Shown here: positions 10,001 through 36,376 of the stretch, one piece after another | How the letters are laid out: every line of letters starts with the position of its first letter | How positions within the stretch are numbered: position 1 is the first letter of the stretch | Origin: a virus | DNA: 42,028 bases | Strand: one strand, 5' to 3' | IMG/VR virus record: IMGVR_UViG_3300025072_000013 | Coordinates: 1 to 42,028 of that record | Translations under genes and position numbers: made by a program | Notes under the pieces: generated by a model | What the model saw: only the letters and a program-made list of their open reading frames with translations | The model's database searches: none | Told to the model about the DNA's origin: nothing

Positions 10001-13000
10001 CTGTAGAAAAGTTCAAGGTCTCTAAGTTCTCCTCCTGACCATTTTTGTACCACCTTACGCATGGTGCGTCCAAACTTATCTTCAGGCAGAAGCCACCCTT
10101 GACCAAGTCTAAATTGGTTAAGCAATTGACCGTTACTTATTTGACCTAACATCATTTGAGCAGCTTGATCCATGTCGTGTGGCAGCATCACTGAAAAGAA
10201 GTCATCTGCAAGTCCTCTGTAAGTTAGGAACTCCTCTGGTTCTATATGCTCCCCAACAGCTACTTTGTCTCCAGCGTACCTATATCCTCTAGTACCCGGA
10301 ATATCTGCTTCCTCAAATCCCTTCATAACATTCCACATTGAAGGAGATGTTCTTTGTATTATTCTGGCAATTAGCCCATTATTACTTCTTGCGTCTACCG
10401 AAGGGTTCGACATATCGCCGAAATACTTTGTGCCTCCCTCACGCATAGGGGTCATATCCGGTGTAAAATCTGCTTCCCAATATGTGTTATACAGATTTTC
10501 ACTAAACTCTTTTACTTCATCAAGTTCTTTTCTCAGCCTGCGCATCAGTGCTGCCCGTGTGCGCCAAAGTTCGTGGGGAGATCGGTGAGGAAAACCCCTT
10601 ATAGCCATTGGCGCACCTATTTCTCTTACTGCCCTTAAAGTGGCAACCATGGCAGCCATGTGAGTAAACATCATCCAAGAAGCGTTTGAACCGTTATAGG
10701 AATTAGCTACTCTCGCAGGGCCTTCCATAATGTCCATATTATTGTAGTCAAATTTTTCCGTTATCCTACCTGTGAAATGAGTAAGTGCCTCATTAAAGTT
10801 TGCATACCCATGCTGGGGCCATTGAGCAACTTCATCTAAGGCTTCACGGAAATAAGAGTTGGCTAAGGAAACTACTTCTGGGCCAAAGGTTGTTTCATAG
10901 TTTCTATCGTTTGTCCCAAGTCTCCCAAAAAGATTATTGAAGAACCTTGTGCCTACAGGATCAGACTTGCCAATACCATCAAGGCGCATAATATTCTCAG
11001 ACGGAACAGCGACATGGAATGCTTCTACTATTCCATTCCACTTAGTCTGATTAATAAGGGCACCACCCCACCTCTTTGTTGCATCTGTAACACCCGTTTT
11101 TGCTGATTGCAGAGAACTCACTCCATCCATGCCTGCAATTAATGCATGGTCGGTAAGGAGAAGCCCCGGCCCAAAAAGCGTGTTGTGTAGGGAGGTTGTT
11201 GTTTGAGAATGCCTGAATCTTCCTTGAGGCATAACACCTGCATGGAAGAAGAGGGTAGGCCCTTGCGGTCTTTCTCTTCGTATGCCTTGTATATTTCGTA
11301 CTGCCTGAGCAAGTTCTTCCTCAGTTGCGTCCCTCATTAACTCCCTGTATGCCTCTGAGTAAGGCCATGATGTTGCTACCTGATCGTATACATAGTTAAT
11401 GTTTTTCTGATTTGCGTCTAGTATCAGCTTTGCTTGGTCGATCTGTGCAGGAGTGCCTTCTCTGCGCGCCCTTTCCAGCAATGCTTCTGCCTGCAAGAAA
11501 TCATGTTTTATAGGCCAAACATCCTCAGCCGTAACAAATAGTCTCTCTCCTTGGTAAATTCCTACGCGCGGCCTAGACTGGTCACGTACCTCCGATTTAG
11601 CATTAATCATATCTTGAAGGGTAAACATCTCTTCAGGAGATTGAGGTTTGATAAATCTAAAACCACTCTGGTCAGCTTGGGCTGCCTGCATGGAAGTGAG
11701 TGGCTCTAAGTTATGATTCAAATAACTGGCTTCATACAAAGGTTCTAAACTATTTCTTTGAGCAAAAGATAACTGACCTATCTCTCTCAACAAAGCTTTT
11801 GACATGGATACACGGGTAGCCCATGCTTCTAGTGGCAATGCGTCAATCACCGAGTCATCCCACATTGCCCCTATATTTGAACCGCTTTCATCAAAGAAAG
11901 GAACATCTTCTCTTGGGTCTAATAACTTCCTCTCTTTAAGTACCCGCCAGATATGTCTTAGATGCTCTCCTGATGTAAGAGAAACTCCAAAGGGGGTAAG
12001 ATACTGCTGCGGGGATATTACATCAGTTAATAAAGTTCTTTGAACTTGGCGCATGCGCACATCGAATGGCGTGAACTCTTGCAGCATCGACTTCTCGTCA
12101 ATGGTGCCCGGCAAATCTATTCTCATTGCAAGCGGGAGTGTCTCAATAAGTTCGGTAGCGTCAAACCCTATTAATAGATTGGCAAGATTAACCCGAAGAA
12201 GGCTTGCCTCTTTCTCAGACAGGTAATCACCCACCCGTCGCTGAACTTTCGCTGCCATAAGCCTCTCAAGAAGGAGCCTATTACCACCCTGCTTGTTTGC
12301 TGGAACTAACATTTCGCCAGCCATAGGGACTGATAATGGTCGGAACTCTGCGTTTCTTACGTCATCAAGTAACTTTTCAACGCGATCCCACGTTTGTCCG
12401 TCTGCACCTCGCCAGCCCTCTGCCATGCCATGTGGCCCTGTTTTTGTATAGCGTTGCGCAGTAGGCCATCTAGCATGTTCGGGTGAGGGTATCCCATATC
12501 CTTCCTTGTCTATCGCCTTCAAGCCTCTTTCCCAATATGCCCTAAAGTCTCTCATTAGCTTCAGGAGCATTTCAGCCCACTTCCTGAACATGTCGTTCAT
12601 CCACTGGTCGCCGCGGGTTACTCCCAAGGCTGGGCGATAGTTTGGATTAGTAAGCATTTTATATATATACGACGAAAAGATTTCTGCGCCTGCTTCTGCT
12701 ACCTGACTATGCCAAGGATCAGTCTTTACTTTATCTCCCGTTACGGGATCGTAAATTTTAATAGCAAGTTGTTTGTAGTCATCGATTGCTGCGTCACCCG
12801 ATTTACGCCAAGCCCTTGACCCCGGAGAATCTCCTAATATATCTACTCTCTGTAGAAGATCAGGGTCGGCGTTGTACATAAACCGCGCGCCTCTCGGAAC
12901 GCCAGCTATCCACGATTCCCCAGCCTCGCCCGACAAGACCGCTGCTTTGACTGACGGTATATCCATCCATCTTGCTATTAAGTCGTTGTACTGGGAGTCA

Positions 13001-15459
13001 CTCAGGTTCCTTGCTTTTGCTAGGGCAGCCCTTCTAGTAACGCTTGAAGCCGAAATTATCTCTTCCACCAGTTCTGCATAGTCATCTGACTCATGGAGGG
13101 GGTAAAGTGTTTTTCGGGTAAAGGCAATCTGTTGTTTTATAAGATGACTAAATTCTTCGTATTGCTCCGGTGGTAATAATTGCACAAGGTTATTCATGAT
13201 TACATGGAAAAACTCATGAACCAATGTAACAACATTTCCCAACTCGTCCGTGCCTCTAGGCGATTCCCTCTCTCGCTGAAAGAGTGATATTAATGACTGC
13301 ATGGGAGCGAAATGTAAATCTGGGTTTACATCCATAGCACCTGATGCTCTTATCTTAGCCCAATGCGCTGCCGATAAATTTTGTGTTGGCAGACCGTGGG
13401 TAACTGCCAGTGCCCCTTTTAAATGCTCTGGGAGATCAGGGACGTCGAAGGCAGATTTGGCCTGTCTATCTGCGACACCGACAAGCATATTTTTTATTGC
13501 GTCTTCTTCACTTATCCCAAAGCCCTCTGCCAGAAACTGCATAAAGGGTCTTAAAAACCCAGCAATCTTCTCTTGGGATTGCCTGTCAACGCCATACATA
13601 TTGCCAACAGTTTTTACATAACTATCAACACTTTTTATCTCTGTGACTACTTCTATGCCTTTAGAGGTCGTTACCTTAAGGTTGCCAGTTTCGGCATCTA
13701 TTACACCGCGGGTTTTAAGGTCTGCAATCCTTCTACTAGGATCGCGAGCGTCTTCTAACGCTCTCTTAGTTTGCAAAGCCCAAGCTTCGTTTTCTTTAAT
13801 GTAGTCATCAATAACTTTAAGGGCGCGTTGTCCTGCGGTTCGGTCTAAATCTAAACCTCTCGTATGAATCCTCTCTGCTAGTTGAAGGGCTTCAAGCAGT
13901 GCCTCTTCGTCGGGGTCAGGAAAAGTTCTAATCCATTCAGCCTGTGCGTTAATTACCTGTCTGAAAAATTGAGCAGTACGTTGAGCGGACAGGGTGAGGG
14001 ATTCAGGAGCCAGTCGAGGTTCCAGTACGGTGCGTAGGTGAGTTCTGGCTTTCCTTAGTTTTCCAAATAAAGTGTCAGGGTCAATCTGAAGAGGAGACTT
14101 TCTTGTATCTTCAAGAATCTCATTGATTCTTCTGGCGACAGCCTCTACTTCTTCCATGCTGCCTAATCTAAAGGATTGCCCTATGCTCCCCTCAACCATC
14201 CCACCTGTAATTAAGTTCTCTTTAGTTATCCTAAATAATACTGGCGTTCCATTCGCCCTAACTCCATAAAAACCACTGAGTCCTTTAAAGCGCGTCCCAA
14301 CAGCTTTCATTTTCTCTAAGTCTCTTGGCTGTAAGGGAATTATTACCTCATCCCAAGGCTTATCTCCCGGCCCTACTTTCTTTAATGGCGTTGTCGTTGG
14401 GGTGTATTTTTCAGTAGCAAGTTTGTCATTCCAAAGTTTTGCATTATTTCTGATGATGTCCGGCAATGCTGGGTCGGGGTATGCTACGGCTTGAGGCCAA
14501 GTGCCCTCATCAATATCTATCTTTAAGAAGTCTTGAAGGTCTAAGCCCTTACTCATTGATTTGTTTTGGTTTCTGGCTATTGTAAACTCACCAATCATTG
14601 AGGTCGCTTCGTCCATATTCCTCGCGACAAAGAGGAACTCTGAAGCTTCTGGCAAAGCTGACGGTGGCACGTCTGACGGGAACTTAATGACCTCTTCCAT
14701 CTGCGCAGCGGTTCGGTTGCCATGGCTACCAAAGCGATCAATAGCTTTTTTCGCGCCCATTGCTGTACCTAAGAAAGCACCACCAGATGCCAGACCAATA
14801 GGGAGGGCAGCCCACATTGGGAGACCTTCTCTCTCTGCTGCACGTAAACCTGTTTCAGCAGCAAGCCCAGTACCTAACTCAAGACCTAATGCTCTTGCAA
14901 GTCCTGACTTAGTTCCGGTAGATGCAAGCGGTTCAACAAGGGCTGCTGCCCCTTTCGCGCCTAACTTTAATGCTTTGTTACGGCCTATTACTCCCGTACC
15001 TGCTGCTGCTCCTCTTAATCCTGCTGCTATCGGTGTCCCAAAACCCAGAGTTAGGGCTGTGATTCCAACATCAAATGGACTTGTAAGTTGTGCTGCACCC
15101 ATAGCTACATCTCTTGGGGTCACACTAAAGCCTTCCCAACCGATTCTAGGCTGATCTGGAGCCTGCATTGCCCAATGTTTAGCTAACGGCTGCATGTCAA
15201 ATAAAGTTTCTGGTAGCTGTAACGCCATTGGGAGTTTAGGCTCATCTGGAGATGGGCCACCTACATCTGCGCCAAATGTTCGGGCAAGCATTTTTGGCAG
15301 ATAGACAAGAGGATTCTGGTCAATCAGTAGGCGTTTTGCATAGGTTTTTGTGTAGTCGGCAGGAGAGAACCCCAGTTCATTTTTAACATTGAATCCGGTT
15401 TCTGCCTTGCCGAGACTTGTGACTTCTTTAAGAAAGTCATTAAAGGATGGAACTGCCAT
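7003..15459 (-). CDS. Giant multidomain virion protein with zinc-metallopeptidase motif (polyvalent-type)
   Basis: One unbroken frame of 2818 residues, a fifth of the genome. Features seen, in order: an Ala/Gly-rich hydrophobic stretch at about 120-240 that could contact membrane; a zincin motif HEFFH at 748-752 followed by an acidic helix (DYAELVEEIISASS), consistent with a gluzincin-like active site; FFHAG near 1405 and FGPGLLLTDH from 1429, resembling the start and the GxYLTD-like strand of ADP-ribosyltransferase-fold domains; long charged helical regions; and a C-terminal part with another hydrophobic segment near 2410-2430. Such multi-domain arrays are known as phage polyvalent proteins, thought to be ejected with DNA. 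It lies between the scaffold and portal-side genes. No tape-measure protein is evident elsewhere, so it may take that role or act as an internal ejection protein. The enzymatic domains are inferred. Confidence 0.75.
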   Translation of the reverse strand: MAVPSFNDFLKEVTSLGKAETGFNVKNELGFSPADYTKTYAKRLLIDQNPLVYLPKMLARTFGADVGGPSPDEPKLPMALQLPETLFDMQPLAKHWAMQAPDQPRIGWEGFSVTPRDVAMGAAQLTSPFDVGITALTLGFGTPIAAGLRGAAAGTGVIGRNKALKLGAKGAAALVEPLASTGTKSGLARALGLELGTGLAAETGLRAAEREGLPMWAALPIGLASGGAFLGTAMGAKKAIDRFGSHGNRTAAQMEEVIKFPSDVPPSALPEASEFLFVARNMDEATSMIGEFTIARNQNKSMSKGLDLQDFLKIDIDEGTWPQAVAYPDPALPDIIRNNAKLWNDKLATEKYTPTTTPLKKVGPGDKPWDEVIIPLQPRDLEKMKAVGTRFKGLSGFYGVRANGTPVLFRITKENLITGGMVEGSIGQSFRLGSMEEVEAVARRINEILEDTRKSPLQIDPDTLFGKLRKARTHLRTVLEPRLAPESLTLSAQRTAQFFRQVINAQAEWIRTFPDPDEEALLEALQLAERIHTRGLDLDRTAGQRALKVIDDYIKENEAWALQTKRALEDARDPSRRIADLKTRGVIDAETGNLKVTTSKGIEVVTEIKSVDSYVKTVGNMYGVDRQSQEKIAGFLRPFMQFLAEGFGISEEDAIKNMLVGVADRQAKSAFDVPDLPEHLKGALAVTHGLPTQNLSAAHWAKIRASGAMDVNPDLHFAPMQSLISLFQRERESPRGTDELGNVVTLVHEFFHVIMNNLVQLLPPEQYEEFSHLIKQQIAFTRKTLYPLHESDDYAELVEEIISASSVTRRAALAKARNLSDSQYNDLIARWMDIPSVKAAVLSGEAGESWIAGVPRGARFMYNADPDLLQRVDILGDSPGSRAWRKSGDAAIDDYKQLAIKIYDPVTGDKVKTDPWHSQVAEAGAEIFSSYIYKMLTNPNYRPALGVTRGDQWMNDMFRKWAEMLLKLMRDFRAYWERGLKAIDKEGYGIPSPEHARWPTAQRYTKTGPHGMAEGWRGADGQTWDRVEKLLDDVRNAEFRPLSVPMAGEMLVPANKQGGNRLLLERLMAAKVQRRVGDYLSEKEASLLRVNLANLLIGFDATELIETLPLAMRIDLPGTIDEKSMLQEFTPFDVRMRQVQRTLLTDVISPQQYLTPFGVSLTSGEHLRHIWRVLKERKLLDPREDVPFFDESGSNIGAMWDDSVIDALPLEAWATRVSMSKALLREIGQLSFAQRNSLEPLYEASYLNHNLEPLTSMQAAQADQSGFRFIKPQSPEEMFTLQDMINAKSEVRDQSRPRVGIYQGERLFVTAEDVWPIKHDFLQAEALLERARREGTPAQIDQAKLILDANQKNINYVYDQVATSWPYSEAYRELMRDATEEELAQAVRNIQGIRRERPQGPTLFFHAGVMPQGRFRHSQTTTSLHNTLFGPGLLLTDHALIAGMDGVSSLQSAKTGVTDATKRWGGALINQTKWNGIVEAFHVAVPSENIMRLDGIGKSDPVGTRFFNNLFGRLGTNDRNYETTFGPEVVSLANSYFREALDEVAQWPQHGYANFNEALTHFTGRITEKFDYNNMDIMEGPARVANSYNGSNASWMMFTHMAAMVATLRAVREIGAPMAIRGFPHRSPHELWRTRAALMRRLRKELDEVKEFSENLYNTYWEADFTPDMTPMREGGTKYFGDMSNPSVDARSNNGLIARIIQRTSPSMWNVMKGFEEADIPGTRGYRYAGDKVAVGEHIEPEEFLTYRGLADDFFSVMLPHDMDQAAQMMLGQISNGQLLNQFRLGQGWLLPEDKFGRTMRKVVQKWSGGELRDLELFYREANVEALTFIGGGNTGIPHRLAMLVGNEDVINNNLVKRENLSPEAPSARLETNFEYPRKAERLPTRDKKTGRFVKKTSMFSTSQFSFSPSEATKKLSDAKAKLEKVIRKQIEALKEKKILGSSRQGGAADVVDLNKKASKGDVVPNLDVTDANIDPPIYKGKPTRWNNIVPRELDEVLASDPSEGLRLADGTITNEGNASIAVAIIRKMPELLEKSWELVKVNEEILAANRRRKAAISASLAEQISDPRQLAIAQMGALRGEMTALGFEPMSMDVKEFAALLSYAQQRLGERSFDVVNAKIALEKLTGHSFDPSVEPGLAARHLQRNEIMLIERLFGFDIAALAATRSRQLRTREKILRALVDFLNIPRILLLGGDFGGLFNQGLLFAGRPKAYLKAAAEGLKSFAIPRNFEQAMRDIEGHQHFAKFFSPPGVRSGVNGEGGYGAYFADLNSPLSLREEQFVSEYLRRIPGIGHMYKAFERFHVAFLNKLRFDMMQSAYLVFKNSGAKQADIDRQMRTYADWVNKGTGRGNIWKANELTAGLNTIFLAPRWVVSRFQVPVAVAKELGSYSINRTTGRPVKNNLVAKQIAKDMVGFATVIGGIATLLSLNGFQVGTDHRKSDFLKLTKGRTNIDLTAGMGSVFRFIFRAGSVSLQGATEGEPFRGKLLSATGVEYDKNLWDVSSDFLNMKFSPAVRTVDTLVTGRNFYGEDIDAERAFLPTDLKTLQEWAPLWIQEVGDAAEQLGTSSAASLLLPSLAGLNVAIYPDKNDLALEALGRNYTEAWPFEQESIDMLYYEESRFSPSEYSENNYALNSLFLDEMEKVLSNPNISDTQKSYQISKRYHDLNKEKRGIRLQAFGADDQGREDEYPLRVSQQEFYEYKDSLYDPATFAGSNSAYEYAELLEQIYLDGLTEIEREYILANMYMLPLPMELLDLKTTTGESPGWVKRVTQARELQAKVVRRHGLEAAPFDPSLYEETREMQRNIGGETYAQEVAIAN

Positions 15460-19773: not shown

Positions 19774-21150
19774 TTACCACCTGTTTACAGTAATTATCTT
19801 GGTCGAGCCTACAGCCCTAGCGTAGCCATAGTTTACGACAAGTCCGTAGGTTATTGCTTTAATGCCGTGGTTGAAAGCATCTCTAGGCTCCCTTCCAACA
19901 GTATTACCTTCCCTGTCTGTACGCCAAGTATAAACATGAATCTGCTCGTCGAACGGGTTCGCACACCCGCCCAATTCAGAGATTACACCTTTTACCTTGG
20001 GGTTGAAAATTATATTCGGCTGCTTATTAACAGGGTTTTCTTTTAAGAATGTGTTGAACCTTTCAACACCATCAAGTATCCCGACTCTCTCTGATTGCAT
20101 ATACAGGCTGGCCTTTTCAAGCCAAGTATCTACAGGGCGGGATTCCCCTATATTATGGGCTGCAACATCAATTACTCCGTGTTGAACATCGGGCCACCAC
20201 GGGCGCATCTGGCAAATCTCTATGATCTCTTCAGTAATCTTCTCGCGTTCAAAGATTTCGTCGATAACCCTAACCTGTTCCCCAATAATTTGTACAGCCT
20301 CAACAGCATAGGCCGACTTTGTTACCTGTGAGTAGCCGGGGTCTACCCATAAATGAACTGGCTCACCCTTAATATATTCTGCCCTGTCCGATATATGTGA
20401 CTGAACATCAAACATGTTGTGTACAAGTCCCTTCGGGGGCGCAGGCTTGCCCGCTACACGTTCATTAAACCAGTCTTCGGAGTGCAATCGCTCCAATGCC
20501 AGTATCTCATCGTCTTCCCTGCCATCAGGGTAGACCGCTTGGTTAGTCCAAGAGGGTAATGAGAAGGAAATAGCGTCATCGTCAGGATTAAAGTACTGCC
20601 AAGCCTCCCATTGGGACGGATACCAGCCCAATGACATCTCAAATGTACCTTCCAAGAACAGATACCCACGCTTCTCAGCAATTCTGCCTCTAAGCCTAAG
20701 GAAACTTTCGTAGTCAATCTGAGATGCCTCGCAAGCTACCACCATTCGCGGTGCTTCCATCGCAAGACTACGGTAATCATTGGCAGATTTCGTCTTGATG
20801 GTAAAAATACCGGGGTCTTCCTGCGTACCACAGGCAACAGACATCTCTCCGGGGTCGATTCGCTTGGTTTGCTTGACCAGAAAGCCCAATCTGCCAAGAA
20901 TATCGGTCAGATAGTTCCATTCTGCACGGGTTCTCTCGTAGTCACGGGCTACAAGCCACACGATGTCGCCATTCTCGTACTCATCAAGGTGGTTGATGAT
21001 CGAAAGCGCACCTAAAAAGCTTTTACCCGCACGCTCCCCGCCAGCAACAAGCTTAATCCTAGCCTTGTGGTCAAGAATCTGTTCCTGTTCCCGCCATGTA
21101 CTGAACCCGGCAGCCTCAAGAATAGTATTCCGGTCTTCTGTAAGTAACAA
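19774..21150 (-). CDS. terL: Terminase large subunit (packaging ATPase-nuclease)
   Basis: Packages DNA into the prohead. From the chosen start, the Walker A motif GGERAGKS is at 37-44; a hydrophobic strand (DIVWLVARDY) and the segment IFTIKTKSANDYRS follow in the ATPase domain. The C-terminal part has the RNase H-like nuclease core: VHLWVDPGYSQ with the first acidic residue, then QVRVIDEIFE and HGVIDVAAHN with further acidic positions. I prefer TTG 21150 because AGGAGG lies just 4 bases upstream; a longer frame reaches TTG 21201 without a ribosome-binding site. It is the first gene of the late operon and is followed at once by the portal gene, the normal order. Confidence 0.9.
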   Translation of the reverse strand: MLLTEDRNTILEAAGFSTWREQEQILDHKARIKLVAGGERAGKSFLGALSIINHLDEYENGDIVWLVARDYERTRAEWNYLTDILGRLGFLVKQTKRIDPGEMSVACGTQEDPGIFTIKTKSANDYRSLAMEAPRMVVACEASQIDYESFLRLRGRIAEKRGYLFLEGTFEMSLGWYPSQWEAWQYFNPDDDAISFSLPSWTNQAVYPDGREDDEILALERLHSEDWFNERVAGKPAPPKGLVHNMFDVQSHISDRAEYIKGEPVHLWVDPGYSQVTKSAYAVEAVQIIGEQVRVIDEIFEREKITEEIIEICQMRPWWPDVQHGVIDVAAHNIGESRPVDTWLEKASLYMQSERVGILDGVERFNTFLKENPVNKQPNIIFNPKVKGVISELGGCANPFDEQIHVYTWRTDREGNTVGREPRDAFNHGIKAITYGLVVNYGYARAVGSTKIITVNRW

Positions 21151-21269
21151 ATCGCCTCCTAAAAGCGCAAGCCCTTGATACTGGAGGCGATTCCATACCA
21201 AGGGCTTGGCCCGCCAAACCCTAATAACTAATAACGCGTACCCGTTACCAGCGATTGTAACCCTAACGA

Positions 21270-21537: not shown

Positions 21538-21778
21538 ACCTATTACCATCATTACCTTCCCACACCCCAATCACTCCCCACCTCCCATGGGTCGGATGCA
21601 TGAGTCAGTCAGCCCCTCAGCGTACGCGTCTACGCACTCACTGAGCCGAACTTGCAGCCTCCCCCACTTGCAAAGCAAGTGAGGGGTCTAGGCACTTTTG
21701 GGTCAGCCCAAGCGTAGCTTGGAGCCTCGTACGCGAGAAGGGCTGTCACAAGTGACAGATTCCAACTCACTGCTGTGA

Positions 21779-21806
21779 TTGACCCTCTAGCTAAAGCTAG
21801 GCTAAT
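21779..21806 (+). promoter_or_regulatory. Candidate early promoter
   Basis: TTGACC at 21779-21784 and GCTAAT at 21801-21806 are separated by 16 bases, resembling bacterial -35 and -10 boxes (5 of 6 and 4 of 6 consensus positions). The spacer is occupied by the hairpin with stem CTAGC and loop TAAA. It points toward the early genes starting at 22066. Weak evidence. Confidence 0.3.
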
Positions 21807-22065
21807 TTCAAAAACTGGATTTGACGCTCTCTCCGTGCGCAAGGGCTTCGCCCCGTGTGAGAGAGGGGAGGAGTTTTTGGCACTTTGGCTGCCTCGCGCC
21901 CACGGGACGACGCGCACCACCGTGGGCGTTTTGCGAAGCAAAACACGCAGTGGCAACGCCGTCGGGGAAAATCGACAGGTCGGCTGATAGGGTTTTTGGA
22001 GGTCGCTGCACCGCTCGCCACAGCGTCCTGCCTACATACCCAAGGCGAGCGAACAGGAGTCCGAA

Positions 22066-22584
22066 ATGCGAAGTCTACGACTTACCCCCAGCGAAGCTGA
22101 AGCCATGAGTCCTTCTCGACTTATGTCGAGAAAGATTCGACGTCCACTGCTTATAGCAGTGGCTATGAAGGCTGGTCTCACCAAAGGTGAGACCAAAGGT
22201 CTCGGAACCCGTCTTCTTCGAAGACGAATCGTCGATGCTTTAGCATCGTCCGATGGTCGCATTCCCAGCAAAGCTGGGAAGGTCAAAGTCACGTCAGGGT
22301 CTTTAGACCCTGCCATGATGCCAGCAGAGGGAATCTCCGATTCCCTCCTGCTGGACAGGAATGGCAATGCCCTAAAGGGCACTGCCAGACAAGCCAGAAT
22401 CGACAAGTTGGAGCGAAGCTCCAAGCCAGTGGGCAAGAAGAAGGCTGCTAAAGCAGCCAAGGCAGCCAAGGCAGCTAAAGCTGCCGAGGCTGGAAGCCTT
22501 GAGGCTCGCATCGTCAGAATCGAAGATTCTGTCGAGACCATGGCTAAAGCCATGGCAGCCCTCACCGCTGCATTTGCCAGCTAA
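22066..22584 (+). CDS. Ala/Lys-rich basic protein encoded inside the hairpin array
   Basis: A 172-residue frame whose ATG is preceded by AGGAGT 6 bases upstream, the same site used by nearly all following genes. Residues 1-80 are basic (RLMSRKIRRPLLIAVAMKAG, GLGTRLLRRRI); about 123-140 is a KAAKAAKAAK repeat as in histone-H1-like proteins; the last 30 residues (SLEARIVRIEDSVETMAKAM) look like a short coiled coil. A nucleic-acid-binding role is plausible. Sixteen or so hairpins lie inside it, so its codons are heavily constrained; GCTAAAGC, for example, reads Ala-Lys-Ala. The stop codon lies in the TAAA loop of the hairpin 22574-22593. A long antisense frame also exists but is Ala-rich and has no comparable ribosome site. 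It may be the first gene of the early operon or a by-product of the array. Confidence 0.5.
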   Translation: MRSLRLTPSEAEAMSPSRLMSRKIRRPLLIAVAMKAGLTKGETKGLGTRLLRRRIVDALASSDGRIPSKAGKVKVTSGSLDPAMMPAEGISDSLLLDRNGNALKGTARQARIDKLERSSKPVGKKKAAKAAKAAKAAKAAEAGSLEARIVRIEDSVETMAKAMAALTAAFAS

Positions 22585-22654
22585 AGCTGGCAAGTCGCCC
22601 CAACCGTGGGTGGGCACTTGCCCACCCACCCACCCAAGTAGCTAGGAGTGCGTA

Positions 22655-22795
22655 ATGAACTACTTCAAAATCCACTTAGTATGCCCAACTTGTGCCCGAT
22701 CAAGTTGGCGAGTCTTGCACTTAGGCAAGCGTACTGGCAAGTTGCAGTGCTGCGCTTGCAAGTGGATCGGCACACTTGCACAAGCTAGCAAGTAG
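22655..22795 (+). CDS. 46-residue zinc-ribbon-like protein
   Basis: A small protein with AGGAGT 7 bases before the ATG. It contains CPTC (10-13) and CCAC (32-35), a CxxC pair on each side of a basic hairpin-like region (RSSWRVLHLGKRTGK), the layout of a minimal zinc ribbon. Such proteins often bind nucleic acid or protein partners in early phage takeover. The upstream hairpin 22606-22629 (10-bp stem) precedes its ribosome site; within the gene another inverted repeat, CCAACTTG/CAAGTTGG, occupies 22685-22708. The function is unknown. Confidence 0.65.
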   Translation: MNYFKIHLVCPTCARSSWRVLHLGKRTGKLQCCACKWIGTLAQASK

Positions 22796-22895
22796 TCGAA
22801 ACGGCAACGAAGTTGCCGTCTGTGGGAACTGACCTACCCGCACTGACGAGATTGGTCACAACTAGCAGACGCTTTAGCGTCAACAGGAGTGAGTT
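22793..22895 (+). promoter_or_regulatory. Structured leader element, copy A
   Basis: Begins TAGTCGAAACG (22793-22803), overlapping a hairpin with stem ACGGCAAC and loop GAA (22801-22819), then a TGGGAACTGACC-like segment, then GGTCACAACTAGCA (22854-22867), then a second hairpin with stem GACGC and loop TTTA (22868-22881) and the AGGAGT site. Copy B at 23417-23500 shares the flanking words but has different stems, suggesting structure is conserved over sequence. Confidence 0.6.
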
Positions 22896-23177
22896 ATGGG
22901 TACAACTACGTTGTATAAATCCGACACGATTGGAACGCACTTGGAACCTGCCTACTCAGGCGTATTGACAACTTTGGAAGTTGCCGATATTCGGAAATTC
23001 TTACGCAAGTACGGGTGGTTACGAGTGTGGTGGGGATTTCACCGAAATGCGAAGCATTTCAGTGGTGCCAAGATCAGGCAAGTTGCCTTGTTCGGGCACC
23101 CAGACGACGCAAGTGAGAATCGCAAGATTGTCACTGGTCAAACACAGTGCGAGCAAGTTGCTTGCACACAGTCATAG
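22896..23177 (+). CDS. Hypothetical early protein, 93 residues
   Basis: Starts after CAACAGGAGTGAGTT, with the AGGAGT typical of this operon. The sequence is mixed alpha/beta with aromatic WLRVWWGFHRN in the centre and a Cys-containing polar tail (GQTQCEQVACTQS). A GAAATGC hairpin with a GAA loop lies inside the gene at 23044-23060. No family is recognised. Its position among small early genes suggests a host-interaction or regulatory role, which is inference only. Confidence 0.6.
   Translation: MGTTTLYKSDTIGTHLEPAYSGVLTTLEVADIRKFLRKYGWLRVWWGFHRNAKHFSGAKIRQVALFGHPDDASENRKIVTGQTQCEQVACTQS
23044..23060. repeat. Isolated GAA-loop hairpin inside a gene
   Basis: GAAATGC pairs with GCATTTC around GAA, with outer CAC/GTG pairing across one mismatch. 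It is the same loop type as in the main array about 450 bases to the left. Confidence 0.7.
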
Positions 23178-23189
23178 GAGTACGCAATT

Positions 23190-23411
23190 ATGAACAGCGA
23201 AACACTAGCTTTACACCTACTTTGGCAACAGGAGCGCGAGTTTGAACTCGCACTCACTGGGCAACTAGTCGGAAAGGAGTCCACGTTCGTACTCGACCCT
23301 GACGGGTTCGACACAGGAGTGGTCGCAACTGAGGACGGTTGCGAAGTTGAACCAGACGGTACTTGCCAACACGGGCAGGTATCCCCACTCGTACGATTGG
23401 GGCTTGTATAA
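23190..23411 (+). CDS. Hypothetical acidic early protein, 73 residues
   Basis: Begins 12 bases after the previous stop, after TAGGAGT. The N-terminus is a helix (LALHLLWQQEREFELALTG) followed by an acidic beta region (FVLDPDGFDTGVVATEDGC). No known domain. A hairpin GCAAG/CTTGC lies before its ribosome site. It is probably part of the small-gene early operon; the function is unknown. Confidence 0.6.
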   Translation: MNSETLALHLLWQQEREFELALTGQLVGKESTFVLDPDGFDTGVVATEDGCEVEPDGTCQHGQVSPLVRLGLV

Positions 23412-23416
23412 CCAAC

Positions 23417-23501
23417 TAGCCGAAACGCCGAGAGGCGTTCACTTGGGAGTGACCGCCCAAGTGCTGATGATGGCAGGTCACAAACTAGCATAGGAGTGGG
23501 T
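23417..23501 (+). promoter_or_regulatory. Structured leader element, copy B
   Basis: Begins TAGCCGAAACG (23417-23427), has a hairpin AACGCC/GGCGTT with loop GAGA (23424-23439), then CACTTGGG/CCCAAGTG with an 8-base loop (23440-23463), then GGTCACAAACTAGCA (23476-23490) and TAGGAGT. Flanking words match copy A at 22793-22895 while stem sequences differ. Confidence 0.6.
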
Positions 23502-23942
23502 ATGACTAACACAGGACTCGACCCGCGTTACGACGACGCGAACAATCCCGACTGGTATTGCGTACACGGGCAATACACTGGCAACTCGTGGGGGGCAGAT
23601 TTTCTCTGCGGTATGTGCGAGGACGGGTACACCGAACGCATAACGTGTGTTGACGAGTGCGGATTCTGGACTTGGGGGCTACATGGCGAGAAAGTTCTTG
23701 CATGTGTGCCTAACCCAGAACGCACTAAGCAAGCGCAAGAGTACCGCATTGTTCGCAATCGAGCAAGGTGGGAAGGCGAGTACGCGAACCTACACGCGCA
23801 CCTTCGGGAACTTGTAGCGTGGGAACAGGAGTACACACCCAAGCGCGTACACTGGTATCGACATCGTGACAGTCAATTCAACGACGTGTACACGTCGGGG
23901 AACATATACGAGCCATCGGGCAAGACATTCAAGCGCATATAG
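23502..23942 (+). CDS. Cys-rich early protein, possible zinc-binding
   Basis: A 146-residue protein. I choose ATG 23502, 5 bases after AGGAG, over an in-frame GTG at 23496 that overlaps the ribosome site. The N-terminal half carries Cys at 20, 36, 39, 49 and 53 plus H22, including CGMC, spaced like a small metal-binding domain. The C-terminal half is a charged, Trp/Tyr-rich helix region (EYANLHAHLRELVAWEQEY). No family is recognised. Confidence 0.65.
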   Translation: MTNTGLDPRYDDANNPDWYCVHGQYTGNSWGADFLCGMCEDGYTERITCVDECGFWTWGLHGEKVLACVPNPERTKQAQEYRIVRNRARWEGEYANLHAHLRELVAWEQEYTPKRVHWYRHRDSQFNDVYTSGNIYEPSGKTFKRI

Positions 23943-24501: not shown

Positions 24502-24513
24502 TTTTGGTTATTA

Positions 24514-24572
24514 CCCCTTACCCTTTTCTCTCTTCTCTTTGAAAAAGAGAAGAAGAGAGAAAAGGGAAGGGG
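24514..24572 (+). terminator. Long AG/CT hairpin, terminator or RNase III-type site
   Basis: A CT-rich arm (24514-24540) pairs with an AG-rich arm (24544-24572) around GAA: about 26 bp interrupted by a 1-base and a 3-base bulge. It follows the stop at 24501. There is no T-run after it, so an RNA-processing hairpin is as likely as a terminator. The core is nearly the same as the hairpin at 27047-27104. Confidence 0.65.
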
Positions 24573-24627
24573 GGAGAAGATTTCGGTTTGATTTTTGGTT
24601 CGATAACAAGCACAAAAGGAGTGCATT

Positions 24628-24863: not shown

Positions 24864-24943
24864 GGGGGCGAAGGGTTTAGCCTGTAACTAGAACCGCTTG
24901 CGGAAGTTGCAGTACGTGGGTTCGATTCCCACCGCCTCCACCA
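24864..24943 (+). ncRNA. tRNA/tmRNA-like RNA with alanine identity element and no normal anticodon arm
   Basis: The acceptor stem GGGGGCG (24864-24870) pairs fully with CGCCTCC (24933-24939), including a G-U at the third pair, followed by A and an encoded CCA. The T arm is perfect: GTGGG, TTCGATT, CCCAC (24916-24932). The middle 45 nt do not form a standard D arm or a 7-base anticodon loop; TGTAACT can pair with AGTTGCA around a 15-nt loop. G3-U70 with A73 is the known alanyl-tRNA synthetase signal, shared by tRNA-Ala and tmRNA, and the 3' end resembles tmRNA ends. It could be a reduced tmRNA-like domain, a degenerate tRNA or an attachment site. Confidence 0.6.
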
Positions 24944-26664: not shown

Positions 26665-27074
26665 TGAAGTGCCCTAAGTGTAGCGGGTGGGTCGCTGACC
26701 AGTACGGAGATGAGTTCTGTCTCAACTGTGGCTGGCGTGACATACCTGCAAATATATCCATGCCAATAGTCACAGTTGGCAATAGTGTATCTCGCGTGGA
26801 GATAAACCTAGACCCTGCCGACCCTGTTCACAAGAAGAGAATGAAAAAGATGCTCACTAAATGTGAAGGTTCGGGCAGGGCTGGGTACGAATACACTAAC
26901 AGGAACTCTATCGGGAAGGCACGTTGCAGAGTGTGTGACCAACGTGTGTTAACTGCGAAGGCAACTGCTGTTGAAGAACATAAACCAACTCGATTGATGT
27001 TGGAGCAGCTTACCTACGCACTTGCCCTTGATGAACAAAAACCAAACCAACCACCCTTTTCTCTCTCTCTTTGA
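26664..27074 (+). CDS. Zinc-ribbon protein, 136 residues
   Basis: CPKC (3-6) and CLNC (19-22) form a classic N-terminal zinc ribbon; a second set, C67, C88 and C91 (ARCRVC), may form another. The ribbon resembles those of RNA polymerase factors and DNA-binding proteins, but the rest of the protein is not recognised. The 3' end of the gene lies inside the hairpin 27047-27104, and the stop codon sits at the hairpin's loop. Confidence 0.65.
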   Translation: MKCPKCSGWVADQYGDEFCLNCGWRDIPANISMPIVTVGNSVSRVEINLDPADPVHKKRMKKMLTKCEGSGRAGYEYTNRNSIGKARCRVCDQRVLTAKATAVEEHKPTRLMLEQLTYALALDEQKPNQPPFSLSL

Positions 27075-27104
27075 AAAAGAGAAGAGAGAGAAAAGGGGGG
27101 TTGG
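27047..27104 (+). terminator. Long AG/CT hairpin overlapping a gene end
   Basis: CCAACC and CCCTTTTCTCTC-type sequence pair with an AG-rich arm ending GGGGGGTTGG, about 26 bp with a mismatch and small bulges. The stop codon TGA of the zinc-ribbon gene is at the loop (27072-27074). The core matches the hairpin at 24514-24572. No T-run follows. Confidence 0.65.
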
Positions 27105-27128
27105 GGTAAACCAGAAAAGGAGAAAATT

Positions 27129-27392: not shown

Positions 27393-27434
27393 ACTTAAAA
27401 TCTTGGTTCGATACTAATTACAGGAGTGTTCAAC

Positions 27435-28460
27435 ATGGCAAAACTGCCAACTAAAAAGTACGAAAAGCACGGTGCGTATCTATCCAGCTACGGTGAGGAC
27501 ATCGTTGCGTCGCTAGATAAGCACAACCCTGACCCGTGTCTACTGGTTGGGGATACAGGATGGGGCAAGACCACAGTTCTCAAGGCTTATGCCAACGCTA
27601 ACAAGCGTGAGTTCACAGGAGTTAACTTCTATCCACGAATGAGCGTTGATACCTTGGTAGGTATGTGGCGACCTCAGAACGTAGACACCGGAGTCTCCGT
27701 TGAGTGGCAAGATGGACTGCTTACCCAAGCAGTACGATCAGGTCACATCTTCATGGGTGAGGAACTTACCCGTGCGCCCCGTGATCTAGCGGGTCGAATC
27801 TTAGGGCTACTTGATAGTGCCAACAGGTACTGGTCTATCCCTGAGGCTGGCGTGAACGAGATACCAGTCGATGAGAACTTCTGGTTTGTCGCAAGCGCAA
27901 ACCCAACGTCAGGGAACTACGCAACCGTGTCACTTGATGCTGCGTTGTTGCGAAGGTTCTCTTACGTTTGTGAGATTGAACAGCCGATTGCAGATGAAGA
28001 GAAAGTCATCACTGCTATGTCTGCTGGGGTAATCCAAAACCACGAAGACTTTACGGAACGTATGCTGAAGTGGGTTGCTGACCTTCGTGGTTCAAGAGAG
28101 TCTGCTATAAACACAGGCGACCTTGTTAGAGTCGTGGATGCGATGGTGCGTAAGCAGATCAAACCTGTTGATGCGCTGACTCACACGCTCAAGTTCAAGT
28201 ACCCACACTTTGCTGGAATCTTAACAGCTTTCGGTGCGCACCTTGAGACATTCGATCTTAAGTGGACTAGCGCAAAGGCAAAAGCTTCGGCACCTGCACC
28301 AACCCCCGACCCTGAGCCAGCACCTGACAGTGTAGCTGACGCTGAAGTTGAGGGAACAGGTAGCAAAGATGTCGTAACGGCACCTTCCACTGCTGGTGCG
28401 AAATCGGTTACTGATCTGATGTCGCAGCTTCAAAGCTTCATCGACCAGCAGGACAGCTAA
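27435..28460 (+). CDS. MoxR-type AAA+ ATPase (CobS-like)
   Basis: A 341-residue AAA+ ATPase. Walker A GDTGWGKTT is at 39-47; the Walker B strand reads HIFMGEEL (104-111), where the usual Asp before Glu is Gly; sensor 1 is FVASANPTSG; an arginine-finger LLRRF follows. About 65 C-terminal residues are Pro/Ala/Asp-rich linker (TPDPEPAPDSVADAEVEG) ending in a short helix. MoxR ATPases act with VWA-domain partners to remodel proteins or insert metal, and the next gene is such a partner. ATG 27435 is 8 bases after AGGAG; an upstream in-frame GTG overlaps that site. Confidence 0.85.
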   Translation: MAKLPTKKYEKHGAYLSSYGEDIVASLDKHNPDPCLLVGDTGWGKTTVLKAYANANKREFTGVNFYPRMSVDTLVGMWRPQNVDTGVSVEWQDGLLTQAVRSGHIFMGEELTRAPRDLAGRILGLLDSANRYWSIPEAGVNEIPVDENFWFVASANPTSGNYATVSLDAALLRRFSYVCEIEQPIADEEKVITAMSAGVIQNHEDFTERMLKWVADLRGSRESAINTGDLVRVVDAMVRKQIKPVDALTHTLKFKYPHFAGILTAFGAHLETFDLKWTSAKAKASAPAPTPDPEPAPDSVADAEVEGTGSKDVVTAPSTAGAKSVTDLMSQLQSFIDQQDS

Positions 28461-28516
28461 CAACAACTACATGGGGGCTGCGCATCCACAACGCAGATTA
28501 GTATAGGAGTTCGTCT

Positions 28517-30214
28517 ATGGTAAAGATTAACTACACAATGGGTGGCTTTGACGAGATGTTCAGAGTCACATCTGGAAACCCAGACATGCATGTGAGGCGG
28601 GGGTCTAAGGGCAGGAACAAAGCCCCGACGGGTATAGCTGGGCAGTTTACATCAAGTGGTGTCCACCTGAGAGGGCGGTCGAAGAAAGAGGACAACCTGC
28701 TTGTTGCAGGTCGTATGAAGTACCCTGCGTACTCTCTCGATTACAGGTCTATAGCAGACAGGCTTACTGCTGCGGTCACAGACATTCGTAAGGGTGATGT
28801 GCCGAAAGATGGTGAGTGGATGATAAACCCTTATGAAGTCGGAGACTTCATGAACGCTGTTGAGTATGCTCGTTCAGCATCGCTGTCTGCAAGTCACTAT
28901 GACAATCGGAAGATCGAGGATGCAGCAGTTGAGCAGCTTCAAAAGATCACACACAATCAGAACGCTGACGAGATAGCTGAACTTGTGTTAACAGGTAAGG
29001 TCAACAACCCCAACATGTACGGGCCTCTGGCTAGAGACTCTTACACTGCTAGGGCTGCTGCTCGCATGGGTGGCTTGACTGACAGGGAAAAGCAACCCGA
29101 TGGTGCAAAGGCTCTGTTCACACGGTCGTTAATGGAACTGCTTAAAGCAAAGCTTGAAGATGTGATCCAATCACCCGACATTACCCAGCCACCGCCACCA
29201 CCTACGGATGAGCCACCAACAGGTGACTTGTACAAAAACCCGAACGGGAACATTGGTATTCCAGAAACGTGCAAACAGCCAGAAAAAATGGAAGACCTTG
29301 TGCCTGAGCCTGACCCAGAGAAAAAGGGTACCCCTGATGACGGTGGTCAAAGCCAACTCAAGGACATCGACAAGCTTGTTGACTCAGCTATTGATGAGGG
29401 CAACAAGAAGCATGAAGCCAAGCAGGAGTCCGAGGAAATTAACGTTCAACCTGAAGCGAAGGCTGACCCTGAAAGGTTTGAGTCTGCTCGTAGAGTAGAG
29501 GATCAGGTACACGTTAGGCAGATATGGGGTGTGCAGGTTCCAGCAGAACCTATGGGAATAAGTATCCCAGACTCAGATGATGGGGCTGCTGAACGTGGCA
29601 AGATCGGGACTCCAACAAGCGACCTGTGGAAAGCCAGCTTCGGTGACATGAGGGTGTTCGATTCAACAGGGCAGACTGCCCCACGTACATTGACCATCCT
29701 TGTTGACTGCTCAGGCTCTACTATCGGAAGAAAGTGGCAGAACGGGCGACCATTCCAAGCGTTAGGCTGGTCGATAGCAGCGCAACTGCTGAAGCTTTCG
29801 CCTCAGTCGGAAAGCTTTGGGTTTAGTACCCGAAACGGAATGACCCTGTACTCAGGACAAAAGCCGGGACTTATCCCTGATGGTGTTCAAGGTGGCGGTG
29901 GAACTCCTACTGCCTCAGCCTTGGTCTGGGCATATGAGCGAGCGCACGGTAACGATACCAGCGTGGTGCTTATAACTGACGATGACCCTGATTACCATGC
30001 TGCTCCCGTAGCTGCTGAACTGCGGAACCGTGGAGTAACATTGGGAATCATTGGACACCCCAACTACCCGCCACAGTACGACGGGTACAACCAAGCTGCT
30101 CAGAACCGGAAACGTTTCCACGCTATCGGATTCCCAGCAGACTTGAGTGTCTACTTCTCAGGTACAAACGACGTTCATCTGTTGAACGAATTGTTCGACA
30201 ACATCATGGCTTAG
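28517..30214 (+). CDS. VWA-domain protein, partner of the MoxR ATPase (CobT-like)
   Basis: A 565-residue protein preceded by TAGGAGT. The C-terminal third is a von Willebrand factor A domain: TLTILVDCSGST carries the MIDAS D397-x-S399-x-S401, GGGGTPTASAL supplies the conserved Thr near 458, and LITDDDPD near 487 the final acidic site. The N-terminal 250 residues are basic then helical; residues about 225-340 are a charged Pro/Glu-rich linker. This is the CobT/MoxR-partner layout. With the adjacent ATPase it likely forms a chaperone or chelatase-like machine; the substrate is unknown. Confidence 0.85.
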   Translation: MVKINYTMGGFDEMFRVTSGNPDMHVRRGSKGRNKAPTGIAGQFTSSGVHLRGRSKKEDNLLVAGRMKYPAYSLDYRSIADRLTAAVTDIRKGDVPKDGEWMINPYEVGDFMNAVEYARSASLSASHYDNRKIEDAAVEQLQKITHNQNADEIAELVLTGKVNNPNMYGPLARDSYTARAAARMGGLTDREKQPDGAKALFTRSLMELLKAKLEDVIQSPDITQPPPPPTDEPPTGDLYKNPNGNIGIPETCKQPEKMEDLVPEPDPEKKGTPDDGGQSQLKDIDKLVDSAIDEGNKKHEAKQESEEINVQPEAKADPERFESARRVEDQVHVRQIWGVQVPAEPMGISIPDSDDGAAERGKIGTPTSDLWKASFGDMRVFDSTGQTAPRTLTILVDCSGSTIGRKWQNGRPFQALGWSIAAQLLKLSPQSESFGFSTRNGMTLYSGQKPGLIPDGVQGGGGTPTASALVWAYERAHGNDTSVVLITDDDPDYHAAPVAAELRNRGVTLGIIGHPNYPPQYDGYNQAAQNRKRFHAIGFPADLSVYFSGTNDVHLLNELFDNIMA

Positions 30215-33921: not shown

Positions 33922-34998
33922 ATGGGTACTAGGAAAGAAGCACTTGGAAAAACAACGAGTGCATTAAAGGAACTAGTCAGCACGCTTGTAGGTTGGCCTT
34001 GGATAAAGAGGCAACCGAAGCAGTTGAACATGTTTGACAGGGAGTATGCCGAGTACGTTCGTACTAATGAGCAGAGGTTCTCAGCTTGGCGACAGGTTAT
34101 GAACGATGTCTCTAAGAAGGTAGCGCATGCTCAGGATGGGATTGCCGAAGTAAGGGAACTCGTAAAAGAACTACAGGTCTCCGACAAATTCGGCAGGGTT
34201 GCAGCTTCAAGCACCGACAAAAAAGTAGAGGCGTTAGAAGCACAGCTTGCCTCACTGCGAACGAACGTGAAAGAAAAGCCAACCTCTGTTGAAGACCACA
34301 CAGAGAAGGCAAGGGAAGCGCGGGCTACGTCCCCAAAGAATGAACCGTCACACGAAGGGATGAGGGTAACACCTGTTGGTGAACGACCTACACACCATCT
34401 CTTGTGGGCAGTACAGGACTCAACCAAGGACGAGATTGTTGAGTACGCAAATTGGGCAAGGGATGCTGGGGAGTTTACGCCGAACGTAGCCACTGCTGAT
34501 AGCCCTATGCTTGGGTGGTCTAACGGGAAACGCTCCCGAATGTTCAGGCACATGATCGACTTGAGGTTGATAAGGGTCACTGATAGGGGCGGTTACGGTG
34601 GGCCAAAGAAGGCTATCTTTATAGGCACCCTGAAGAAGTGGAAGTACACCGTAGTTTCGATTGAAAAGCTTTCTTCTCGCCTGTTTAAGCAGGGTATAGG
34701 CAAGTGGTCTGAACCTGACAGAGAAGAAGCCCCTGTTCGACCAGCAGAAGACCCTTCCCTAGAAGAACTTGAGCAACAAGCCTACGAGTCTGACGATCCA
34801 GACTTGGCTGAAGAACTGTACGACCGTGCTGTCGAGTTAGACAACCAAGCAAATGGGGTTGTCACTGTGCTGGAAGAGTACAAGGACGAAGGCGCAGAAC
34901 AGAAACCCTATCATGTCGGTGCGACCAAGACTGATCTCGGTGATGACTGGTCTGCCAAGTACAGAGATGACAGGCGCGGAAACAGGGAGCATTCCTAA
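33922..34998 (+). CDS. Hypothetical protein with coiled coil and winged-helix-like region
   Basis: A 358-residue protein after AAAAGGAGT. Residues 1-115 are basic then coiled coil (NDVSKKVAHAQDGIAEVRELVKE; VEALEAQLASLRTN); about 160-245 contains helices followed by LIRVTDRGGYGGPKKAIFIG, a wing-like hairpin; the last 110 residues are acidic with a repeated EELEQQAYES / EELYDRAVEL pattern. It could act in replication or as a transcription factor, given its place after the primase-helicase. TAATG-coupled to the nuclease gene. The family is not recognised. Confidence 0.55.
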   Translation: MGTRKEALGKTTSALKELVSTLVGWPWIKRQPKQLNMFDREYAEYVRTNEQRFSAWRQVMNDVSKKVAHAQDGIAEVRELVKELQVSDKFGRVAASSTDKKVEALEAQLASLRTNVKEKPTSVEDHTEKAREARATSPKNEPSHEGMRVTPVGERPTHHLLWAVQDSTKDEIVEYANWARDAGEFTPNVATADSPMLGWSNGKRSRMFRHMIDLRLIRVTDRGGYGGPKKAIFIGTLKKWKYTVVSIEKLSSRLFKQGIGKWSEPDREEAPVRPAEDPSLEELEQQAYESDDPDLAEELYDRAVELDNQANGVVTVLEEYKDEGAEQKPYHVGATKTDLGDDWSAKYRDDRRGNREHS

Positions 34999-35327
34999 TG
35001 ACAGCTAGAGCAACATGGAAGGCATCCGAGCGACGCATAGCAGCGATACTCGGCGGTGAACGTGTGCCAGTGACGGGGCGAGAGCGTGGCTCTGCCCCTG
35101 ATGTGGAGCATGAGGTGTTTGCAATCGAACACAAGTACGGTAAAGTTCTGTCGTCACGTTTTCAAACAGCGATTGAGCAAGCGCAAGCAGCAGCGGAAGG
35201 GACTGACAAGCTGCCACTTGTTACGTTTGAACATGCTAGGGGTGGAAACGTTGGCAACATCATCGGGGTCGCCATGCTCATGGATGACTTCGTAAAGCTG
35301 ATACTTAAGCTGGAAGAGGACAGCTAG
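34998..35327 (+). CDS. PD-(D/E)XK nuclease, possibly Holliday-junction resolvase
   Basis: A 109-residue protein. APDV with D35 and FAIEHKYGK with E44 and K46 give the PD-(D/E)XK active-site spacing, preceded by an N-terminal helix with R/K (WKASERRIAAILGGERVP) that would hold the first acidic residue, and followed by a helix with Gln residues (FQTAIEQAQAAAEG) as in the family. Small proteins of this type in phage replication modules are usually junction resolvases or nucleases resolving replication intermediates. The start overlaps the previous stop. Confidence 0.7.
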   Translation: MTARATWKASERRIAAILGGERVPVTGRERGSAPDVEHEVFAIEHKYGKVLSSRFQTAIEQAQAAAEGTDKLPLVTFEHARGGNVGNIIGVAMLMDDFVKLILKLEEDS

Positions 35328-35720: not shown

Positions 35721-35809
35721 TCTTGTTCCAAACTCGACTGGAGTTTGAATTTGGAACGTCCAATAGGGGACAGTTTCCACGCGTACGGTTTAGAATTATC
35801 TTACTAAAG

Positions 35810-36376
35810 ATGGATGATTCTAACTACCGACAACATTGGTTACACCAACACCAGAAATTCCTAACACGCGTTAGCCCGCTGGCTATAAGCGCAGCCTTCA
35901 TTGCGACAGGGCTAGTGCTATGGGCTACTGGCACATTCAATATCGAAACTGCTGGCTATACCAGCATCTGGTTCCTCGCCTTCATAGGCGCAGCACTGAT
36001 ATTCCTACCAGTCAGTTCCCTAGCAGCAGTCTGCGTAGCCGCGGCTGTTGACTTGAACCCTTTCCTGCTCGCAGTTGTAGCAGCATCAGCAGAGGCTGTC
36101 GGAGAGTTGACAGGCTATCTTGCTGGCATGGGTGGTAAGTCCTTCTTTGAACACAACCGCTTCTACCTGCGATTCAAGAACTTATTCTTAAAATACGCTG
36201 CTCTTACATTATTCTTTGGCAGCATCATTCCTAACCCACTGTTCGACATCATGGGCGTAGCTGCTGGCAGCATACTCTATCCTGTCCGCAAGTTCCTACT
36301 GCTGGTCTTCATCGGCAAGGTGGTTAAGTTCAGTTGGGTTTCGTTAGGCTGCTACTACGGGATGACATGGTTCTAA
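35810..36376 (+). CDS. DedA/VTT-family-like membrane protein
   Basis: A 188-residue membrane protein. Hydrophobic segments lie near residues 22-40, 50-85, 125-150 and 165-185. GELTGYLAGMGGKSFF matches the Gly-rich re-entrant region of the VTT (DedA/SNARE-associated) family, and FFGSIIPNPLFDIMGVAAGSILYP its second conserved loop (YqaA-like Pro-Asn-Pro). Family members are thought to move lipids across membranes. No ribosome site is visible before ATG 35810; a leaderless message or another start is possible. It has its own position after the terminator and converges with tatC. It may be an auxiliary gene affecting the host membrane or lysis. Confidence 0.75.
   Translation: MDDSNYRQHWLHQHQKFLTRVSPLAISAAFIATGLVLWATGTFNIETAGYTSIWFLAFIGAALIFLPVSSLAAVCVAAAVDLNPFLLAVVAASAEAVGELTGYLAGMGGKSFFEHNRFYLRFKNLFLKYAALTLFFGSIIPNPLFDIMGVAAGSILYPVRKFLLLVFIGKVVKFSWVSLGCYYGMTWF

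Follow-up and report, generated by a model that had tools for sequence, protein, structure and literature searches.

The window analysed here is the whole of the virus record IMGVR_UViG_3300025072_000013, a stretch of 42,028 bases, and near-identical contigs are present in other samples. Its late genes run leftward and its early genes rightward (among the latter an AAA ATPase and a Prim-Pol primase at 31814-33853). An array of short hairpins lies where the two modules diverge and the rightward early region begins. The features that the following text refers to are:

19774..21201, minus strand: terminase large subunit, the fixed landmark adjoining the array in all relatives
21661..22629, no strand assigned: mini-hairpin array, sparse on the left and dense from 22113, with 19 perfect stems of at least 6 bp
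22066..22584, plus strand: P0001, a 172-aa basic helical ORF that hosts most of the hairpins
22113..22629, no strand assigned: dense core, whose 15 perfect hairpins mostly start 23-46 nt apart
22173..22195, no strand assigned: hairpin TGGTCTCACC-AAA-GGTGAGACCA, 10 bp
22515..22531, no strand assigned: hairpin CAGAATC-GAA-GATTCTG, 7 bp, with a C(GAA)G loop
22574..22593, no strand assigned: hairpin TTGCCAGC-TAAA-GCTGGCAA, spanning the stop codon of the 172-aa ORF
22606..22629, no strand assigned: final hairpin of the array, GTGGGTGGGC-ACTT-GCCCACCCAC
22794..22860, plus strand: type II hammerhead ribozyme downstream of the array (Rfam RF02276, 26.8 bits, below gathering)
23418..23482, plus strand: second type II hammerhead ribozyme, between early genes (RF02276, 39.7 bits, gathering 37)
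34998..35327, plus strand: 109-aa Holliday-junction-resolvase-like nuclease (phrog_2002, E 8.7e-5; invariant E11, D35 and E44-x-K46)

We counted hairpins strictly, as non-overlapping perfect Watson-Crick stems with a loop of 3-8 nt, and compared the counts with 300 dinucleotide shuffles of 21661-22629. This region holds 19 stems of at least 6 bp against 1.5 ± 1.2 in the shuffles (maximum 5), 14 of at least 7 bp against 0.45 (maximum 3) and 24 of at least 5 bp against 5.1 (maximum 12), and other 969-nt stretches of the window never have more than 12 stems of at least 5 bp. The shuffles reject a chance origin, and the array is confirmed as real. The original prediction, which proposed shuffled controls as a check, had spoken of about 27 mini-hairpins; the figure of 27 is a looser count, and the density itself is far above that of the shuffles. 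The hairpins are unevenly distributed, four of the 19 lying in 21661-22060 and 15 in 22113-22629, and the fold of 22060-22634 is 12-13 SD more stable than its shuffles with both RNA and DNA parameters. The stems are unrelated in sequence and the array contains no long direct repeat family, which bears out the earlier claim that it is not a CRISPR and not a family of repeats by sequence. A CRISPR or TIGR-like repeat array is rejected because a unit of conserved sequence is absent. No covariance model of Rfam 15 matches within the array itself. Intrinsic terminators are likewise rejected, since a T-run follows the stem in 0 of the window's 19 hairpins and in 8 of the 200 examined from relatives.

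What the hairpins have in common is their geometry. Loops of 3 or 4 nt are found in 96 of the 101 hairpins of the first six arrays, compared to 46% of 568 background hairpins, and a 5'C..G3' pair closes 81 of the 101, compared to 21% of the same background. Stem lengths in dense stretches peak at 7 bp, with 31 stems of 6 bp, 54 of 7 bp, 34 of 8 bp and 14 of 9 bp (2.5, 0.5, 0.1 and 0.1 in shuffles), and 4-bp stems are depleted there. The gaps between hairpins are mostly 5-20 nt and are shorter than 5 nt in 4.6% of cases, versus 24% under random placement, and the hairpins repeat at an interval of ~30 nt across arrays. TAAA, TTTA, GAA and AAA are the dominant array loops. The original prediction of few loop classes inside GC closing pairs is correct for the window, where the closing pairs are nearly all 5'C..G3' and the loops mostly TAAA/TTTA, GAA/TTC and AAA, but it does not extend to the relatives, in which loops are more varied, with a constant loop length (3-4 nt) and stem length (~7 bp); in the wider array set C-G closing is 60%. 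The arrays are defined by this geometry (a stem of ~7 bp, a loop of 3-4 nt, a gap of at least ~5 nt and a repeat of ~30 nt) and not by sequence. C(GNA)G triloops have a particularly high stability in DNA. GNA or its complement accounts for half of the triloops of the first six arrays, but not in all phages, so that this share is no more than supporting evidence. Loop energies calculated with standard DNA and RNA parameters were not discriminating, and a strand bias towards A-rich loops, considered as a sign of RNA, largely reflects base composition (A 34% versus T 19% outside hairpins).

The P0001 ORF makes up about half of the array region, and the densest hairpins lie inside and after it. 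The protein has no Pfam or PHROG match, and its predicted structure is helical (pTM 0.36) with no matching fold in the PDB. Its motif VTSGS.D is conserved, relatives having VTGG.ID. Isolated phages give no DNA match to the window and P0001 matches at chance level only; an iterated P0001 profile became contaminated by long unrelated proteins in L066-L069, and those matches were discarded. Shuffling of synonymous codons in the ORF reduces the 13 real hairpins to 1.5, so the amino acids of P0001 do not explain the hairpins, and an origin as a by-product of the protein sequence is rejected. Tuning to codon phase, an impression gained from L010 and L011, is gone in the pooled set, where the three phases hold 55, 49 and 43 hairpins without preference. 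Hairpins are also present in non-coding leader DNA. P0001 orthologues host the arrays in L010, L011, L106, L111 and L126. L051 and L053 have a hairpin-free orthologue downstream of the array, and other ORFs host the hairpins, which implies that the array belongs to the place and not to one gene and rules out a tie to the P0001 protein. Host ORFs of arrays are fast-evolving. The GC skew changes sign at the array; this is compatible with a replication origin, and divergent transcription also gives such a flip.

Several further features were recorded in the neighbourhood. A recurring CTAG-rich sequence associated with AGGAG-type starts lies ahead of early genes at 22640-23510. Two long near-perfect pyrimidine/purine palindromes between genes, at 24508-24579 and 27040-27108, are mutually inverted copies (pieces 82-96% identical), and AT-rich long palindromes lie between early genes in L049, L051 and L053. 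A tRNA-Ala(TGC) at 24864-24943, with a similar one in L096, has ends that also match the tmRNA model; it may be a tmRNA-like tRNA or mark an attachment site. On the plus strand, 27426-30214 encodes a MoxR-like AAA ATPase beside a 565-aa protein that looks VWA-type by sequence, both in the early region. The phage contig also carries a VTT-domain membrane protein (35723-36376, plus strand) and a TatC homologue (36478-37338, minus strand).

Relatives were gathered by a terminase scan (57 loci) and then by a profile scan (80 loci). Arrays occupy the same place upstream of the terminase in L010, L011, L012, L051, L053, L125, L123, L111, L128, L106, L126, L104, L107, L122, L142, L140, L137/L138, L139 and L148, and in this marine phage family an array has about 10-25 hairpins per genome. 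The array genomes mapped first (the window, G001, G002, G003 and G004) have one array each, and G022, G023 and G024 again show one dense hairpin locus. G025 (L195, 1-20000) has a moderately raised hairpin density across ~8 kb of the early region and not one 1-kb array. Arrays of different contigs have no sequence in common, and their host ORFs differ. Mapping of G006, G007 and G010 revealed no array, and arrays are absent in other relatives with terminases 81-84% identical and in relatives in three MAG contigs with terminases of 38-43% identity. The nearest assembly terminases (38-43%; L175, L176 and L177) come from Chloroflexota/Dehalococcoidia MAGs, a weak host lead. On the terminase tree the array label, found in several deep clades, needs 5 changes compared to a shuffled mean of 11.4, which implies that the array was gained or lost several times or travelled with the early module. 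The late genes of the window are mostly nearest those of the array-less G007, and this combination of G007-like late genes with an array fits module exchange. The 109-aa nuclease gene is found after the primase or in the early region in the window, G001, G002, G003, G022, G023 and G025 and is missing from the array-less G006, G007 and G010. Distant homologues occur in G017, which has no array, and in G020, which has a mildly raised hairpin density. The co-occurrence of nuclease and array may just reflect shared ancestry of the early module.

Covariation of the stems was analysed in three independent close pairs of relatives (L011/L012, L111/L126 and L125/L123). Between L011 and L012 all 14 orthologous hairpins are kept, and their interior pairs comprise 14 Watson-Crick double changes, 80 unchanged pairs and none broken. 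One of these stems has changed at four adjacent pairs, from TTAGAAAC-GAA-GTTTCTAA to TTACTTCC-GAA-GGAAGTAA, and the protein read from the sequence changes there from LETKFL to LLPKEV. Over the three close pairs 269 interior stem pairs are the same, 24 are Watson-Crick-to-Watson-Crick doubles and 5 are broken, compared to an expectation of ~99 changed pairs and 3.7 doubles under independent change at spacer rates. Interior pairs are thus broken in ~1-2% of cases, versus spacer differences of 8-23%. The double changes are often transversions and often alter amino acids. These are the compensatory changes expected of a structured RNA under selection, and they strongly bear out the earlier claim of maintenance at the level of pairing: related phages keep the pairing while the primary sequence changes, and not the reverse. 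The accompanying statement that loop conservation implies selection for structure was too strong, as loops are only partly conserved and templated fold-back copying can maintain perfect stems with no selection acting on individual pairs.

The kinds of mismatch are informative about what keeps the stems perfect. Selection on RNA tolerates G.U far better than A.C, and no such tolerance is seen in the stems. Overlapping counts over all close pairs give 124 doubles versus 11 G.T, 15 A.C and 28 other mismatches, many of the last at stem ends, and among stems with a single inner mismatch there are 9 G.T and 10 A.C. This parity argues against selection on RNA as the upkeep of perfect stems, and a DNA-type structure fits better than an RNA one, as G.T intermediates are not favoured over A.C. 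Changes of several pairs from one Watson-Crick state to another without intermediates are those expected of template switching. Stem pairs change at 0.1-0.7 of the spacer rate, and this lower rate implies that some selection also acts. Spacer (loop) inversions, a further mark of template switching, were not seen by eye between close relatives.

The best account of these observations, which we hold tentatively, is one of DNA-level hairpins with templated upkeep. The array would consist of DNA mini-hairpins placed where the early region begins and the late and early modules diverge. A strand would fold back and the DNA polymerase switch template, so that one arm is copied onto the other in a single event, and the whole-pair stem changes would arise from this arm-to-arm copying. 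Copying would occur at a place of repeated exposure of single-stranded DNA, most likely the phage's replication origin or early-entry region, and the array would probably have a cis-acting role there, for example in initiating synthesis, in loading proteins or in extrusion driven by supercoiling. A switch of template during DNA replication is documented to generate perfect stems, and compensatory changes of several bases, in one event (PMC8794818), also in coding DNA with amino-acid replacement (PMC8604942). Those hairpins are scattered single events (PMC8794818, PMC8604942), whereas the array is dense, regular, confined to a single locus and kept across deep divergence. Single-event arm copying explains both the G.T/A.C parity and the scarcity of broken pairs. 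A redundant array of 10-25 hairpins should let pairs decay, so that its near-perfect upkeep is hard to achieve by selection alone, and the narrow range of its stem and loop lengths and the lower limit on its gaps argue that more than a blind process shapes it. The analysis establishes the array, its position, its geometry and the covariation of its pairs; we infer the DNA level and the templated copying with fair support, and the replication origin and cis role weakly. Several observations count against this account: no origin, promoter or protein site was identified, the skew flip is also a consequence of divergent transcription, no spacer inversions were seen by eye between close relatives, the reduced rate of pair change points to some selection, and the hammerheads beside the array hint at a role in RNA. 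It is possible, though doubtful, that the array represents a new class of phage element, made of sequence-free, geometry-defined DNA hairpins that serve in cis as an origin or early-entry platform, laid over a protein gene and kept by dedicated fold-back copying, perhaps with the Prim-Pol and the Holliday-junction-resolvase-like nuclease.

The hammerheads were surveyed with a purpose-written scanner for core and stems that gives 0 matches in shuffled genomes. It recovers the core and stems at 22794-22860 and finds hammerheads directly after the array gene in L010, L125, L111, L128, L123, L106, L126 and L127, and in L049 it places one behind the P0001 orthologue; inspection of the sequences revealed further ones in L011, L137 and L142. 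Type III hammerheads occupy the same place in L125, L111, L128, L123, L106 and L126. In most array phages a hammerhead thus follows closely on the array gene, and the scanned genomes without an array yielded none, which speaks for hairpins that act in RNA. The first early transcript would then be studded with 7-bp hairpins and trimmed by the hammerheads, and would gain protection from nucleases, Rho, antisense RNA or an RNA-targeting defence. The early strand is the coding strand, and the RNA fold of 22060-22634, taken alone, is 12 SD more stable than its shuffles. We nevertheless consider this explanation somewhat unlikely, because G.U is not enriched over A.C in the stems, super-stable RNA loops of the UUCG type are absent from the arrays and GNRA loops rare, T-runs follow just 8 of the 200 hairpins outside the window, and the arrays of L051 and L053 have no detected hammerhead.

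A mutational hot spot without function, in which fold-back copying makes and perfects hairpins over a dispensable, fast-evolving gene, would account for the whole-pair changes, the unbiased codon phase, the overwritten amino acids in fast-evolving host ORFs and the single locus per genome. It is unlikely in view of the narrow stem length, the 3-4-nt loops and the avoidance of short gaps, which look designed, and of the recurrence of the array at one fixed position across several deep clades of the terminase tree. A blind process would also need a fixed copy length of ~7 nt.

No known family fits the array. Single-strand initiation and lagging-strand origins have clustered hairpins that act in single-stranded DNA. 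Such origins share the clustering with the array but usually have few hairpins and conserved sequence blocks and lie outside genes. The early promoters of phage N4 are short DNA hairpins; the loop and its closing pair govern their extrusion, and their variable stem bases count for pairing alone (PMC4496689). They resemble the array in their short stems (7 bp in one solved complex), C(GNA)G three-base loops, free stem bases and position at the start of the early region, but N4 has three of them, whose conserved bases the polymerase reads (PMC4496689), whereas the array has 10-25 hairpins without consensus. Hairpin promoters of the N4 virion-RNA-polymerase type are very improbable here, since the stems are free, the loops vary, and the candidate polymerase, a 2818-aa ORF at 7003-15459 on the minus strand, has no regular-expression polymerase motif or family match and has giant counterparts in non-array phages. 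This ORF carries an HEFFH motif and is a possible metalloprotease; its versions in relatives are 2000-3500 aa long and poorly conserved. Targets of diversity-generating DGR systems contain one hairpin/cruciform with a 7-10-bp stem of free sequence and a 4-nt loop, which forms in supercoiled DNA (PMC3240598). Here too structure matters rather than sequence and the stem size is similar, but the DGR hairpin stands alone next to a variable repeat and has a GRNA loop (PMC3240598), and the array has many hairpins with other loops. The GRNA tetraloop is not the array's loop type, no reverse transcriptase was found among the proteins scanned, and there is no template/variable repeat pair near the array. 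The array matches parts of the N4 and DGR hairpins and fails the defining features of both.

Provisionally, and judged against the open-access papers that were searched, the array looks like a structure-defined genetic element that has not been described previously. An inverted-repeat survey of 118,019 genomes counted only arms of at least 10 bp (PMC13155455), and arrays with 7-bp stems would therefore have been missed. Base pairing appears to outrank protein sequence at this locus, pairing being kept across amino-acid changes. If there is a real function, the element is recognised by shape and spacing alone and is invisible to sequence-based searches. A purely mutational array would be an unusually clear example from nature of template switching that makes and maintains hairpins, and of a mutational process that rewrites a gene. 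Either way, the manner in which compensatory changes come about without intermediates becomes testable in phage populations.
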